Shown here: positions 4,770 through 57,271 of the stretch, piece after piece
How the letters are laid out: each line of letters opens with the position of its first letter
How positions within the stretch are numbered: position 1 is the stretch's first letter
Assembly (NCBI RefSeq): GCF_033723955.1
Contig: NZ_CP137555.1
Span: forward strand, 2,596,001 to 2,660,000
Reading direction: 5' to 3'
Origin: Microbulbifer pacificus
GTDB lineage: Bacteria; Pseudomonadota; Gammaproteobacteria; Pseudomonadales; Cellvibrionaceae
DNA length: 64,000 nt
The notes under the pieces: model-generated
The model's input: only the letters and a program-made list of their open reading frames with translations
What the model was told of the DNA's origin: nothing
The model's database searches: none
Program-made: the position numbers and the translations under genes

Positions 4770-6443
4770 TCAGTCTTTCAGCATCGGCAGGTCTAGCCCC
4801 TGCTCGCGCGCGCAGTTCTTGGCGATGTCGTAACCCGCATCCGCGTGGCGCATGACGCCGGTGGCCGGGTCGTTCCACAGTACGCGGCCAACGCGTTTGG
4901 CTGCGGCTTCGGTACCGTCACACACGATCACTACACCGGAGTGCTGGGAGAAGCCCATGCCCACGCCGCCGCCGTGGTGCAGGCTCACCCAGGTGGCGCC
5001 GGAGGCGGTATTCAAAAGGGCGTTCAGCAGCGGCCAGTCGGACACTGCATCGCTGCCGTCCATCATGGATTCGGTTTCGCGGTTGGGGCTGGCAACAGAA
5101 CCGGAGTCGAGGTGGTCGCGACCGATGACAACTGGCGCTTCCAGTTCGCCATTCGCAACCATCTCGTTGAACGCCAGTGCCAAGCGCGCGCGGTCTTTCA
5201 GACCGACCCAGCAGATACGCGCGGGCAGGCCCTGGAACTGGATGCGCTCGCGCGCCATGTCCAGCCAGTTGTGCAGCTGCGGATTGTCCGGGATCAGCTC
5301 TTTCACCTTGGCGTCGGTCTTGTAGATGTCTTCCGGGTTGCCAGACAGTGCCGCCCAGCGGAACGGGCCGATGCCTTCGCAGAACAGCGGGCGGATGTAG
5401 GCCGGTACGAAGCCGGGGAAGTCGAACGCGTTCTCCACGCCCACTTCGAATGCCATCTGGCGGATGTTGTTGCCGTAGTCGAGGGTGGCAGCGCCGCGCT
5501 CTTGCAGGGCGAGCATGGCCTGCACCTGGATGCCCATGGATTTTTTGGCTTCGCGCACCACCAGCGCTTCGTCCTGCTTACGCATTTCGGCGGCTTGGGC
5601 CATGGTCCAGCCTTTCGGCAGGTAGCCGTTCAGCGGGTCGTGGGCGGAGGTCTGGTCGGTGACGCAGTCCGGCAGGATGCCGCGCTCGACAATTTCCGGG
5701 AATACGTCGGCGGCGTTGCCGAGCAGGCCGACGGAAATGGCTTCGCCGTTTTCCATGGCTTCGTTGATCATCGCCAGCGCTTCGTCGAGGCTGGTGGCTT
5801 TCTTGTCCACGTAGCCGGTGCGCAGGCGGAAGTCGATACGGGTTTCGTCGCACTCGACGGCGATCATGCAGAAGCCGGCCATGGTGGCGGCCAGAGGCTG
5901 GGCGCCGCCCATGCCGCCGAGGCCGCCGGTGAGTACCCATTTGCCCTTGGCTTCACCGTCGAAGTGTTTGCGCGCAACCGCGGCGAAGGTTTCGTAGGTG
6001 CCCTGGACGATGCCCTGGGAGCCGATGTAGATCCAGGAGCCGGCGGTCATCTGGCCGTACATGGCCAGGCCTTTTTTATCCAGCTCGTTGAAGTGCTCCC
6101 AGTTGGCCCAGTGGGGAACCAGGTTGGAGTTGGCGATAAGGACGCGCGGCGCGTCGGCGTGGGTTTTGAAGACGCCGACGGGTTTGCCGGACTGCACCAG
6201 CAGGGTTTCGTCGTCCTCCAAGCGCTTCAGTACTTCAACGATTTTGTCGTAGCACTCCCAGTCGCGCGCGGCGCGGCCGATACCGCCGTAAACAACCAGA
6301 TCTTCCGGACGCTCGGCGACATCGGGGTGGAGATTGTTCATCAGCATGCGCAGGGGCGCTTCGGTGAGCCAGCTTTTGGCGTTCAGCTGGGTGCCGGTGG
6401 GGGGAATGATTTTGCGGCTGGGGTCGTGGCGCTTGTCGGTCAT
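4770..6443 (-). CDS. hutU: Urocanate hydratase
   Basis: HutU converts urocanate to 4-imidazolone-5-propionate using tightly bound NAD+ as electrophile. The 557-residue length is typical. The [13 protein letters not shown] dinucleotide-binding loop lies near residue 170, and the active-site Cys is Cys411 in [10 protein letters not shown]. The C-terminal [15 protein letters not shown] segment is also conserved. The gene lies between hutC and hutH on the minus strand. Its 5' flank contains a 112-bp structured repeat and a two-hairpin repeat, so expression from the promoter upstream of hutC would have to read through both. Confidence 0.98.
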
Positions 6444-6528
6444 GGTTGCCTCGTCTTTTTTCCAAATTCTTGAGTGGAATTTAGTTTTGTGGGCTTTTGG
6501 CCCGGAGTTTTAAATCTGGTTTTGTTGC

Positions 6529-6640
6529 GGCGGCTTGTCGGGTTCGGGGTTTCAGGACCGCTGCGAGTACATCCATGTACGCTTCGGCGCCGCCATCCAT
6601 GGCGACGACGATCCTGAAACCCCAAACCCGACAAGCCGCC
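6529..6640. repeat. Long hairpin with two internal CATCC hairpins, structured repeat copy 1
   Basis: The arms 6529-6557 and 6612-6640 pair at 28 of 29 positions. The 54-base interior forms two smaller hairpins, GTACAT-CC-ATGTAC and CGCCAT-CC-ATGGCG, giving a cloverleaf-like fold. The core aligns with the reverse complement of the element at 56091-56195, while the outer arms do not. It lies in the hutC-hutU gap. Confidence 0.85.
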
Positions 6641-6677
6641 TTCAATTCGAATTTCTGTACTTCGATTCTCGTTTCTC

Positions 6678-6753
6678 GTCATCCCGGACTTGATCCGGGA
6701 TCCAGTGGTCGGGCGGAGTTCCGACGCTGGATACCGGCTTTCGCCGGTATGAC
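6678..6753. repeat. Two-hairpin extragenic repeat, copy 2 (hutU/hutC gap)
   Basis: It has the same design as the copy at 4664-4752 with the hairpins in the opposite order: first ATCCCGGA.../TCCGGGAT, then ATACCGGC.../GCCGGTAT. It is bounded by GTCATCC and GTATGAC. It ends 9 bp before the hutC stop codon on the minus strand. Confidence 0.85.
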
Positions 6754-6761
6754 GCTGGGAA

Positions 6762-7490
6762 TTAAAACCTCAGCTGTGCGCCCAATCGGTATCGGTTCCC
6801 GGGGTGTACCAGTCGCGCAAAGCTGACTGTGCCGGCACTGCTTTTGGTGCGTCGCCAAATCTGCAGGCAAGCGGTACCCGGTTTGATCTCCAAGGCTTTG
6901 CCGACCACTTCGTCCGCGCCAATCGCCTCTACGGTGGTGTCCACTTCGGTCAGTGGCGCCACGCGGGTGAGGTATTCGTTGGGGGTGGCGGCGCTGAAGT
7001 CCTGCTGCAGGTATTCCGGCACCAGTGTCGGGCTGGTATAGCGTTCCTCGAACTGGATCGGCAGGTTGTTGTCCAGGTGCACGATGATGGAGTGGTACAC
7101 CGCGGCGCCTTCGGCGAGGCCGAGGGCGACGGCCACTTCGGTGTGGGCGACGGTCTGTTCCAGTTTGAGGATACGGGCGGCGTAGCTGTGGCCGCGGGCG
7201 GCGACTTCGTCGGCGATGTTGCGCACTTCCAGCAGGGAACCGGCGGGTACCGGTTCGGCGACAAAGGTGCCGAGGCCCTGGGAGCGGACGAGGACGCCTT
7301 CGTCGGTGAGCTCGGACAGGGCGCGGCGGGCGGTCATGCGGCTGACGCTGAAGTCCTGGGACAGCTGGTTCTCGGACGGCACACGGAAATGCGCGGGCCA
7401 CTGGCCGCTTTCGATCTGCGCGCGGATATGCGCCTTGATCGCGGCGTAGCGGGGCTGGCTGCTTTCTGTGGCTGTCGCCTGACTGCTCAT
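6762..7490 (-). CDS. hutC: HutC, GntR-family repressor of histidine utilisation
   Basis: HutC represses hut genes and is released by urocanate. From the chosen start, residues about 13-80 form a GntR winged helix (RVPSENQLSQDFSVSRMTARRALSELTDEGVLVRSQGLGTFV region) and residues about 95-235 an UTRA ligand-binding domain. The frame is open to 7571, but that would translate through the operator at 7542-7555. The ATG at 7490 puts MSSQATATESSQPRYAAIKAHI at the N-terminus, the usual HutC length of about 240 residues. It heads the hutC-hutU-hutH arm and is divergent from hutI. Confidence 0.93.
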   Translation of the reverse strand: MSSQATATESSQPRYAAIKAHIRAQIESGQWPAHFRVPSENQLSQDFSVSRMTARRALSELTDEGVLVRSQGLGTFVAEPVPAGSLLEVRNIADEVAARGHSYAARILKLEQTVAHTEVAVALGLAEGAAVYHSIIVHLDNNLPIQFEERYTSPTLVPEYLQQDFSAATPNEYLTRVAPLTEVDTTVEAIGADEVVGKALEIKPGTACLQIWRRTKSSAGTVSFARLVHPGNRYRLGAQLRF

Positions 7491-7541
7491 ACTTGTATGG
7501 TCTTCGCCTGCTCGGGTAAAGTGCCTACCCAGTTGTACATT

Positions 7542-7555
7542 CTTGTATATACAAG
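7542..7555. promoter_or_regulatory. HutC operator in the hutC-hutI divergent region
   Basis: CTTGTATATACAAG is a perfect 14-bp palindrome matching the TTGTATATACAA-type box known for HutC in pseudomonads and enterobacteria. A second half-site, ACTTGTAT, lies at 7491-7498 and a related TTGTAC at 7533-7538. The position between hutC (start 7490) and hutI (start 7672) would allow control of both arms. Confidence 0.88.
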
Positions 7556-7671
7556 TTTGTTGATGGCGCAACTATGGATTCAGACCTGACCGCTGTCAAT
7601 AGGGGGTCAATAGGCGCCAAAACCGACAACTCGGGCTATCGTTAGAATTAACGCCAACTCAGTGAGCGAAC

Positions 7672-53783: not shown

Positions 53784-54034
53784 AAAGCATGGACAAACCA
53801 CGGGTTCGCCAATAGATGGCCCTTTGCTAGGAAATTGTTGCTGCCAGGAGCGGGGAATTGCCCCCGCAGCCTTTGCGCCGGCGGGGTGATTACGGGAAAA
53901 TACGCCCCCCGTTTCACCACCGGCACCTTAACGCCATCGGCGCCGGAGGCGGCAGCGGGTCGCGGCAACTGGCCGTCAGAGCCGGGCTCGCAGCACATCT
54001 GATGAACCGAAAGATCCCAAACCGAGAGATCCCT

Positions 54035-56035
54035 ATGTCTTCTACTCCGTCTCGCACAGAAAAGGCTAACGCCATCCGCGCCCTCGCCATGGACGCGGTC
54101 CAGAAAGCCAATAGTGGCCACCCCGGCGCGCCAATGGGCATGGCCGACATTGCCGAAGTGCTGTGGAACGACTACCTGAAACACAATCCGGCCAACCCCG
54201 AGTGGGCGGACCGCGACCGCTTCGTGCTGTCCAATGGCCACGGTTCCATGCTGCTGTACTCCCTGCTGCACCTGACAGGCTACGACCTGTCCATCCACGA
54301 GCTGCAGAACTTCCGCCAGCTGCACTCCAAAACCCCGGGCCACCCCGAGTACGGCTACGCCCCGGGTGTGGAAACCACCACCGGCCCGCTGGGTCAGGGC
54401 ATCACCAATGCGGTGGGCATGGCGCTGGCCGAGAAAGTCATGGCCGCTCAGTTCAACCGCGAAGGTTACGAGCTGGTGGACCACCACACCTACTGCTTCC
54501 TGGGTGATGGCTGCCTGATGGAAGGCATCTCCCACGAAGCCTGCTCCCTGGCTGGCACCCTGGGCCTCGGCAAGCTGATTGCCTTCTACGACGACAATGG
54601 CATCTCCATCGACGGTGAAGTGGAAGGCTGGTTCACCGACGACACCCCGAAGCGTTTCGAATCCTACGGCTGGCACGTGATCCGGGGCGTGGACGGCCAC
54701 GATCCGCAGGCAATCAAGGCCGCGATCGAAGAAGCCCGCGCAGAAACCGCCAAGCCCACCATCATCTGCTGCAAGACCGTGATCGGCTTCGGCTCCCCCA
54801 ACAAGCAGGGCCGCGAAGAATGTCACGGCGCACCGCTGGGTGCCGAAGAAATCGCGCTGGTACGCGAGACTCTGGGCTGGAAATACGCACCGTTCGAGAT
54901 TCCGGACGAACTGTATGTCGCTTGGGACGCACGCGGCAAGGGCGAAGCGCAGGAAGAAGAGTGGAACGACATCTTCGAGGATTACAAAGAGACTTACCCG
55001 GAGCTGGCGGAAGAGTTTGTGCGCCGCATGAAGGGCGAACTGCCGGCAGACTTCCTCGCCAAGGCCGACGAGTACATCAAAAAGTGCCAGGCCGACGCCG
55101 AGAAAATCGCCTCCCGTAAGGCCAGCCAGAATGCGCTGAATGCCTTCGGCCCACTGCTGCCGGAATTCCTCGGCGGCTCCGCCGACCTGGCCGGTTCCAA
55201 CCTCACCATCTGGTCCGGCTCCAAAGGCGTCAGCGCAGACGATGCCAGCGGCAACTACGTCTACTACGGCGTACGCGAATTCGGTATGAGCGCGATCATG
55301 AACGGTATCGCCCTGCACGGTGGCCTGGTACCCTACGGCGCGACCTTCCTGATGTTCATGGAGTACGCCCGCAACGCCGTGCGCATGGCCGCACTGATGA
55401 AACAACGCGTCATCTTCGTGTACACCCACGACTCCATTGGCCTCGGCGAAGACGGCCCGACCCACCAGCCGGTTGAGCAGCTCACCGCCCTGCGCGTGAC
55501 CCCCAACCTGCACACCTGGCGCCCCTGCGACGCCACCGAATCCGCAGTGAGCTGGAAAATGGCAGTGGCCCGCAAAAACGGTCCCAGCGCCCTCATCTTC
55601 AGCCGTCAGGGCCTCGCCCCGCAGGCGCGCACCGATGAGCAGCTGGCAGCCATCGAGAAGGGCGGCTACATCCTGCGCGACTGCGACGGCACCCCGGAAG
55701 CGATCATCATCGCCACCGGCTCCGAGGTAGAACTCGCCACCGCCGCCGCCGACAAACTTGCCGGCCGCAAAGTGCGCGTTGTTTCCATGCCCTGTGCAGA
55801 GGCCTTCTCAGCCCAGAGCGCCGACTACCGCGAATCCGTACTGCCGTCCTCCGTACGCGCCCGCGTTGCGGTAGAAGCCGGTCACAAGGACTACTGGTAC
55901 AAGTTCGTAGGCTTCGACGGCGCCATCGTCGGCATGGACACCTTCGGTGAATCCGCACCGGCCGGTGACCTGATGAAGCACTTCGGCATCACCACCGATA
56001 AAGTTGTGGAAGCGGTTGAAGGACTGCTGAAGTAA
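54035..56035 (+). CDS. tkt: Transketolase
   Basis: Transketolase moves two-carbon units between sugar phosphates in the pentose phosphate pathway using thiamine diphosphate. From the ATG at 54035 it has 666 residues. The frame is open upstream to 53858, but that part is low-complexity and not conserved. Motifs are [56 protein letters not shown], the ThDP motif [13 protein letters not shown] ending DDNGISID, and [19 protein letters not shown]. It is divergent from the ArsR gene and 219 bp before epd. Confidence 0.97.
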
Positions 56036-56090
56036 CAAACGATGACTGCTGACACTTCTCATACGTAGTGCGGCAGTCAGAATTGCAGGG

Positions 56091-56195
56091 CAGGTGCGGG
56101 GCAAGGGTTTTCGGAAGCGTCGCAAACAGGATGTTTGCGCCGCAGCGCCCAGGGATGGGTTTACAGCGGTTCCGAATACCCTTGCGCCGTGCCTG
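56091..56195. repeat. Long hairpin with internal GGATG hairpins, structured repeat copy 2
   Basis: The arms 56091-56115 and 56171-56195 pair at 21 of 25 positions. The interior holds CGCAAAC-AGGAT-GTTTGCG (56121-56139) and a CCCA-GGGA-TGGG hairpin near 56149-56160. Read as its reverse complement, the core aligns with the element at 6529-6640 (CCGCTG, two CATCC loops, CGGCGC, GCGACG in the same order), while the outer arms and most stem bases differ. It lies in the tkt-epd gap. Confidence 0.8.
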
Positions 56196-56254
56196 ACCGC
56201 CACCGCACTGGAACAGAGCTAAACCGAGGGCGGTGGAATTAGCCCGAGGAATGC

Positions 56255-57271
56255 ATGTCCACTCCAATAAGACTCGCCATCAACGGCTACGGCCGCATAG
56301 GACGAAGTGTCCTTCGAGCCCTCTACGAATCCAACCTGCGTGACCAGCTGCAGATCGTTGCCATCAACGAACTGGCCGACTGCGCCACCATCGCCCACCT
56401 CACCAAATACGACACCGTCCACGGCCGTTTCCACGGTGATGTGAGCGTGCACAACGACACCCTGCACATCAACGGCGACCCTATCGCCGTCACCCACCAC
56501 AGCGAACTGGAAGACCTCGACTGGTGCAATCCGCAGGTGGACGTCGTCCTCGAATGCACCGGCAGCTTCAGCGAGCGCGAACGCGCCGAACTGCACCTAA
56601 AAGCCGGAGCCAAAAAGGTCATCTTCTCCCAGCCCGCCAGCCGCGACGTCGATGCCACCATCGTCTACGGCGTCAACGACACCGCGCTCACAGGTAGCGA
56701 GACCATCATCTCCGCCGCTTCCTGCACCACCAACTGTAGCATTCCCGTCATTGCGGCCCTCGAGAGCGCGTTCGGCATCGAAGCCGGCGTCATCACCACC
56801 ATCCACTCGGCGATGAACGACCAGCCGGTAAATGACGCCTACCACCACACCGACCTGCGCAAAACCCGCTCTGCGCTGAACTCCATCATCCCGGTAGACA
56901 CCGGCCTCGCCCGTGGCATCGAGCGTATCCTTCCCGACATGGCGGGCAAATTCGAAGCCCAGGCCATGCGCGTGCCCACCATCAACGTCTCTGCCATCGA
57001 TCTGTCGGTGCAGCTGAAAAAGTCCGTCACCCAGGCCGAAGTCAATTCAGTACTCAGAACTGCTGCCGAAACCCGATTTTCCGGCGTGCTCGGTTACAGC
57101 GAAGAGCCTCTGGCTTCCTGTGACTACAACCACGATCCGCGCTCCGGTGTGGTCGACGCCGGTCAGACCCGGGTTGCCGGCGGCAAAATGGTGAAGGTGC
57201 TGATCTGGTTTGATAATGAATGGGGCTTTGCCAATCGCATGCTGGACGTGGCGAGAAAGATGCAGGTGTGA
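56255..57271 (+). CDS. epd: Erythrose-4-phosphate dehydrogenase
   Basis: Epd oxidises D-erythrose 4-phosphate to 4-phosphoerythronate, the first step of pyridoxal phosphate synthesis in this group. The 338-residue GAPDH-fold protein has [15 protein letters not shown], catalytic Cys157 in [10 protein letters not shown] and His184 in [10 protein letters not shown]. The tkt-epd order is typical of gammaproteobacteria and supports Epd over GapA, as do the [23 protein letters not shown] segment and the N-terminal INEL. Unlike common operons, pgk and fba do not follow; a serine hydrolase gene does. Confidence 0.9.

Follow-up and report, generated by a model that had tools for sequence, protein, structure and literature searches.

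What is the long palindrome that lies between hutC and hutU in the marine bacterium Microbulbifer pacificus, and what keeps its stems paired? The window, by which we mean the whole 64-kb stretch of DNA that was analysed, contains two copies of this element, each of about 125 nt. Copy 1 sits in the hutC-hutU gap and copy 2 in the gap between the transketolase gene (tkt) and an erythrose-4-phosphate or glyceraldehyde-3-phosphate dehydrogenase gene (Table 1). The product of the latter scores 511.4 bits with TIGR01532, below the cut-off of 530.55, and 369.6 bits with TIGR01534, above the cut-off of 367.2. The original prediction had described copy 1 as two hairpins enclosed by outer arms paired at 28 of 29 positions and had proposed that copy 2, read on the other strand, has its core elements in the same order. 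Each of these points held. Of the 29 outer pairs, 28 are Watson-Crick, and the one exception reads as A-C on the plus strand and as a G·U wobble on the minus. The two inner hairpins exist, and copy 2 is arranged as proposed. Over 6529-6560 and 6609-6640, the arms of copy 1 are 94% complementary.

Table 1. Features of the two element copies and their neighbouring genes in the window
Feature	Position	Strand	Remarks
hutU	4770..6443	minus	Downstream of copy 1, on the GGA strand of copy 1; TIGR01228 976.9 bits (cut-off 375)
Copy 1, whole element (covariance model R1 match)	6519..6653	minus (GGA strand)	141.8 bits; genome coordinates 2602519-2602653
Copy 1 outer arm, GGA-strand 3' side	6529..6557	minus	
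Copy 1 hairpin H1, loop ATGGAT	6560..6582	minus	GGA is the complement of 6572-6574; from sequence and model structure
Copy 1 hairpin H2, loop ATGGAT	6584..6611	minus	GGA is the complement of 6596-6598; from sequence and model structure
Copy 1 outer arm, GGA-strand 5' side	6612..6640	minus	
hutC (start codon approximate)	6762..7571	minus	Upstream of copy 1, same strand; TIGR02018 290.5 bits (cut-off 220)
Transketolase gene, tkt (start codon approximate)	53858..56035	plus	Upstream of copy 2; TIGR00232 1007 bits (cut-off 682.25)
Copy 2, whole element (covariance model R1 match)	56075..56208	plus (GGA strand)	129.8 bits; genome coordinates 2652075-2652208
Copy 2 outer arm, 5' side	56088..56115	plus	
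Copy 2 hairpin H2, loop AGGAT	56117..56143	plus	GGA at 56129-56131
Copy 2 hairpin H1, loop AGGGAT	56145..56167	plus	GGA at 56153-56155
Copy 2 outer arm, 3' side	56171..56198	plus	
Erythrose-4-phosphate or glyceraldehyde-3-phosphate dehydrogenase gene	56255..57271	plus	Downstream of copy 2

The idea of a dispersed, structured family lying between genes also stood, although the strand on which copy 1 had been read proved the less telling of the two, as the opposite strand folds better and displays GGA in its loops. Predicted folding energies were -86.3 kcal/mol for this GGA strand of copy 1 versus -75.8 kcal/mol for the other strand, and -68.7 versus -59.9 kcal/mol for copy 2, an advantage of 9-10 kcal/mol in both. 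On either strand, copy 1 folded better than 200 of 200 shuffled sequences (z of -9.8 and -10.4). Between copy 1 and hutC, at 6660-6760, are two more palindromes (CGTCATCCCGG...CCGGGAT and TACCGGC...GCCGGTATGACG) that resemble CGTC-tagged REPs; similar palindromes occupy the tkt gap elsewhere in Microbulbifer (L277, L279, L280, L282-L284, L289, and L290).

Both window copies match the core pattern with 0 mismatches, and the window taken alone is unremarkable, in that 10 of 100 shuffles contained at least two pattern matches with up to three mismatches. The 4.19-Mb host genome gave a clearer picture. A genome-wide search with the pattern of the first hairpin returned 42 places, versus 0 for a reversed control, and 41 of these align as copies; the other (locus L002) did not align and was dropped. 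A covariance model, R1, was built from 40 of the 41, excluding one with a 28-nt insert. At E ≤0.1, with E-values that are approximate owing to a short calibration, it returned 138 rows, of which 32 were the same places on the opposite strand, leaving 106 copies. Compensated double changes were seen in 28 of the 45 model pairs, so pairing is indeed kept across sequence change, as had been claimed. The further step of taking kept pairing as the mark of selection on structure did not follow by itself, because template switching can yield the same pattern, as described in passages of PMC8794818.

On the GGA strand, the covariance model gives the order 5' arm, hairpin H2, hairpin H1, a short conserved junction, and 3' arm, so that a long stem of ~28 bp clamps two hairpins with A-N-GGA-N loops. 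Judged by eye, there are four core types: A, with a GGCAAC/GTTGCC-like H2; B, with CGCGAG AGGGAC CTCGCG; C, with GCGGCC NGGAN GGCCGC; and D, which has a different 3' junction and occurs with A, B, and C hairpins. Throughout the 106 host copies the GGA loops are constant while the stems, and at times the closing pair, vary. Closing pairs were CG in 184, GC in 21, and TG in 1 of 206 hairpins, a count that for 17 copies takes in a third and partly spurious hairpin. At least two GGA-loop hairpins were found in 90 copies (17 of which count the third, partly spurious one), one in 9, and none in 7, and two such hairpins arose in 18 of 2,120 mononucleotide shuffles. Among the 16 copies with fewer than two are cases of point changes, loop-to-loop deletions (e.g., 1451149), and inserts (2128204, 2884111, and 2565516). 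The H2 loop lies outside the search pattern that found the 41 copies, and its GGA is kept in 40 of them, the remaining copy having an insert there. Spacing between the two GGA motifs is also nearly constant, at 24 nt in 63 and 23 nt in 8 of the 73 two-hairpin copies.

The A-N-GGA-N loop corresponds to a published CsrA/RsmA-type site, according to the relevant passages of PMC4333381. Variation in the loop letters falls mainly at positions that are free in the CsrA consensus, and G prevails as the second letter (in 121 of the 181 host-genome loops that have six letters), which gives a host consensus of ANGGAN. Because the first letter of the loop is not fixed, we discarded the possibility of GNRA tetraloops.

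The arms carry a polarity of their own. Among the 41 pattern-found copies, which were obtained without any arm model, mismatches read on the GGA strand were G·U rather than A·C by 22:4. This was counted over positions 0-28, leaving out positions 20 and 21, where most copies have this wobble (29 and 33 of 41). For 104 of the 106 copies (2 with poor arms and two fixed positions left out) the tally was 88:25, a figure that leans towards the result because the added copies came from a GGA-strand model. By setting relative to the neighbouring genes, the ratios were 29:6 for sense, 24:3 for convergent, 29:9 for antisense, and 6:7 for the 4 divergent copies. This asymmetry therefore points to a single strand with fixed polarity, either RNA or DNA, and not to transcription from a neighbouring gene.

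When the GGA strand is read, a weakly conserved TACGAAGYAC-like box stands some 20-25 nt ahead of the 5' arm (at least 8 of 10 letters in 48 of 106 copies versus 90 of 2,120 shuffles; behind the 3' arm, in addition or in its stead, in 17 of 106), and it may be an end of the element. Separately, two copies (2128204-2128389 and 2884111-2884296) have an insert of ~80 nt inside H1 that contains GTTAGGC...GCCTAAC and brings to mind an integron attC site.

The original prediction knew of no named family for this element. One that comes near does exist, TwoAYGGAY (RF01731, clan CL00106), although its score falls below threshold. Rfam at gathering scores gave 0 matches in the 64-kb window, and RF01731 surfaced only in a looser scan, aligning end to end with copy 1 (6522-6647, minus strand) at 42.5 bits (E ~5e-6) versus a gathering cut-off of 43. 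It did not match copy 2. Ten places in the host genome were listed at E ≤0.1, none above the cut-off of 43, and 0 of 20 loci from relatives (20 of 59 loci) exceeded it. Cross-detection in the other direction succeeded: of 12 canonical TwoAYGGAY loci, R1 recovers 3 where RF01731 places them and on the same strand (57-75 bits); one further locus (L350) was matched at another place and 8 had no match. Like our element, TwoAYGGAY sets two GGA-loop hairpins on a longer outer stem on the same strand. Some genomes in the class hold several copies of it, among them inverted neighbours: of 274 genomes in a class sample, 17 had a match (13 above the cut-off), with up to at least 9 per genome, and the inverted neighbours were in G218 and G328. 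The ATGGAT of the two loops in copy 1 fits AYGGAY, whereas the second loop letter genome-wide is mostly G, and the H1 stem is shorter than in the RF01731 model. We place the element as TwoAYGGAY-like, a putative divergent branch of the same kind; it is not a formal member, because no host copy passes the cut-off.

The listing of TwoAYGGAY among candidate RNAs dates from 2010, and the entry in Weinberg 2010 rates it a probable RNA that is probably not cis-regulatory, whereas the Rfam type line for RF01731 reads Cis-reg. Gardner and Eldai (2014), in the part of PMC4333381 concerned, proposed it as CsrA-binding from two CsrA motif matches. In the open-access literature covered, under limited terms and including portions of PMC2864571, PMC11661157, and PMC11701678, we found no description of TwoAYGGAY or of CsrA-site hairpins as a dispersed repeat; nor did we find an experimental test of the CsrA proposal in the open-access portion searched. 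Sections of PMC4333381 and PMC4383904 describe the sponge RNAs CsrB, RsmY, and RsmZ, which likewise present paired GGA hairpin loops to CsrA. These are each one gene with several loops, whereas here there are many dispersed units with two loops each. In the host genome, the best RsmZ (RF00166) match reached 23 bits versus a cut-off of 44, with no row at the place of the element, CsrB (RF00018) had no match, and neither CsrB nor RsmZ was among the looser Rfam matches of copies 1 and 2. We discounted the weak matches of both copies to miRNA families, since any long hairpin can give such matches by chance.

The genome-wide placement was established with our own unpublished codon-usage gene finder, which replaced a longest-ORF orientation that was too noisy. 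The 106 copies comprise 38 sense to both neighbours, 33 antisense, 31 convergent, and 4 divergent, and there is thus no sense-strand bias in tandem gaps (38 versus 33). Gaps of at least 60 bp with the element (n = 88) were tandem in 62 cases, convergent in 22, and divergent in 4, versus 112, 17, and 53 of the 182 without it, the latter being gaps in the window and in the very regions that supplied the former rather than in the entire genome. Divergent gaps are thus avoided (4/88 versus 53/182; Fisher P 9e-7). Forty copies form 20 close pairs (<600 bp), all inverted, with 5' ends facing in 16 and the opposite way in 4. For 62 of the 66 single copies (the 4 divergent ones excluded), the median distance between the model match and a stop codon is 32.5 bp. 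REP-like repeats show this same placement behind stop codons and in inverted pairs, with divergent gaps avoided. Both loops are kept in 30 of 33 antisense and 33 of 38 sense copies. Because antisense copies keep their loops and wobble asymmetry equally, transcription from the neighbouring gene does not account for the conservation, and a plain mRNA-regulator reading is accordingly weakened.

Further copies in relatives had been anticipated, and R1 matched 39 of 58 genomes, host included, among them 35 of 37 in the genus. In the class sample the figure was 49 of 274 genomes (host included), in 44 of 222 genera. The 66 distinct copies outside the genus have GGA in 65 H2 and 65 H1 loops, found as they were with a model that favours GGA loops, and their stems differ widely. 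Different species also showed different states at the same site. Across 13 Microbulbifer records (out of 80 hutC-hutU loci returned), 7 hutC-hutU gaps hold the element in the same orientation, one of them cut by a contig end (L168), 1 holds a related copy reversed (L177), and 5 hold none. Of 30 tkt gaps, 12 have the complete element, always in the same orientation; a contig end cuts the copy in 1 more (G025), another has arms without a core (G026), and 16 have no element, several of these holding other palindromes. Both GGA loops are kept in 11 of the 12 complete orthologous copies, the exception being G059, in which H1 has AGA. Orthologous copies can differ in core type, which means that modules have been exchanged between copies or re-inserted. 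In two genomes (G001 and G019; L274 and L276), two GTAGGAGCCTGCTTGCAGGCG-like repeats, inverted with respect to each other, occupy the tkt gap instead.

The presumed binding partner is widely present: csrA was found in all 19 genomes searched, host included, and host CsrA carries L4 and R44, residues with a role in RNA binding. A loss of csrA in G007 is not claimed, because its partial match runs into a stretch of N. Among 13 Microbulbifer genomes, 5 (G002, G003, G005, G008, and G009) gave 5-19 csrA matches each, some of them fragments, and the other 8 one each; R1 element matches numbered 1 to 5 in four of these five and 54 in G005.

Our preferred reading starts from the fold, the copy number, the constancy of loops on changing stems, the strand asymmetry, the near-constant spacing, the placement after stop codons, and the retention at orthologous sites, all of which are computational findings. 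We consider the element to be a REP/MITE-like dispersed intergenic repeat of TwoAYGGAY type and give about even odds to the view that its GGA strand, where transcribed, is bound by a CsrA dimer. The GGA strand would then act as a folded single strand, in which the ~28-bp stem clamps a junction with two hairpins, and the hairpins would present two ANGGAN-type loops 24 nt apart. Transcription would presumably place this strand in a 3' untranslated or intercistronic stretch, where one CsrA dimer could bind both loops of a copy; each such transcript would be a small CsrA-binding and partly CsrA-titrating site, and the long stem might shield the RNA end. The geometry of the CsrA dimer enters here as general background, as does the CsrA consensus wherever it goes beyond the passages of PMC4333381, PMC4383904, and PMC9788540. 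Two observations speak against a simple role as an mRNA regulator: the copies show no strand bias, and antisense ones are maintained just as well.

Those same two observations are better explained if the element is a nonautonomous mobile DNA, the GGA strand being the folded single-stranded DNA on which a mobilising enzyme acts and the loops and stems its marks, without a host function. We hold this tentatively as a real possibility. Its 106 copies fit, as do the 20 close pairs, every one of them inverted and 16 having their 5' ends facing, and its avoidance of divergent gaps; G-T wobbles are tolerated in DNA too. REP/BIME palindromes often stand in inverted pairs as well. Like the present element, REP/BIME systems with RAYT transposases, including GTAG- and CGTC-tagged REPs, are high-copy intergenic palindromes behind genes, as portions of PMC3733652 describe. 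They measure 20-40 bp, whereas the present element is ~125 nt and three-way, with conserved GGA loops. They also have a Y1 transposase, and the Y1/REP-type transposase link that had been suggested was not borne out: PF01797 had no match above its cut-off in the host genome, and the element was absent from all 5 Y1-gene loci examined, so no candidate enzyme emerges from that family. A 245-aa Y1-transposase-like protein (1919395-1919679; L258:2524-3261) scores 22.3 bits versus a cut-off of 23 and has, by eye, apparently lost its HUH motif; there is no element within L258, and congeners carry similar Y1-like proteins of 250-280 aa. Nor was there a signal of target-site duplication, as 23 of 106 copies shared at least 7 flank bases versus 20% of 2,000 mismatched pairs. 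Copies that persist at the same site across species with their loops intact also speak against mobility, which gives no reason for loop letters that match the known CsrA preference.

It is unlikely, in our judgement, that the element is a passive palindrome, REP/BIME-like, that does nothing but stabilise mRNA 3' ends and owes its covariation to template switching. Position speaks for this, given the median of 32.5 bp to a stop codon, as does the tkt site, which holds other palindromes in other species and, in G026 (L273), a coreless version in which the two arms form one perfect hairpin. Over all species pairs, which are not independent, two-sided arm differences exceed one-sided ones (409 versus 212 for tkt; 91 versus 57 for hut), and template switching is known to make such changes (part of PMC8794818). 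Among the closest pairs, however, one-sided changes are commoner, with 12 versus 6 two-sided in the five closest differing tkt pairs and 10 versus 7 in the four closest hut pairs, so stepwise compensation under selection fits better than the template switching set out in that part of PMC8794818 alone. A passive palindrome also leaves unexplained both the constant GGA loops on changing stems and the strand asymmetry.

Returning to CsrA binding, the copies together would spread ~200 CsrA-type loops over one chromosome. That these form a distributed sponge, with the repeat load helping to set the free CsrA pool, strikes us as doubtful; if true, such a sponge would replace or compete with dedicated Csr RNAs in many Gammaproteobacteria. 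A dispersed repeat with a conserved RNA-like fold has a likeness, by description only, in bcr1 of Bacillus cereus. With the TwoAYGGAY type now seen in a hundred dispersed copies whose loops are kept while the stems vary, the CsrA proposal can be put to a direct test. This also raises the question of how a mobile-looking repeat acquired the sites of a regulator, and the equal upkeep of its antisense copies is a real puzzle.
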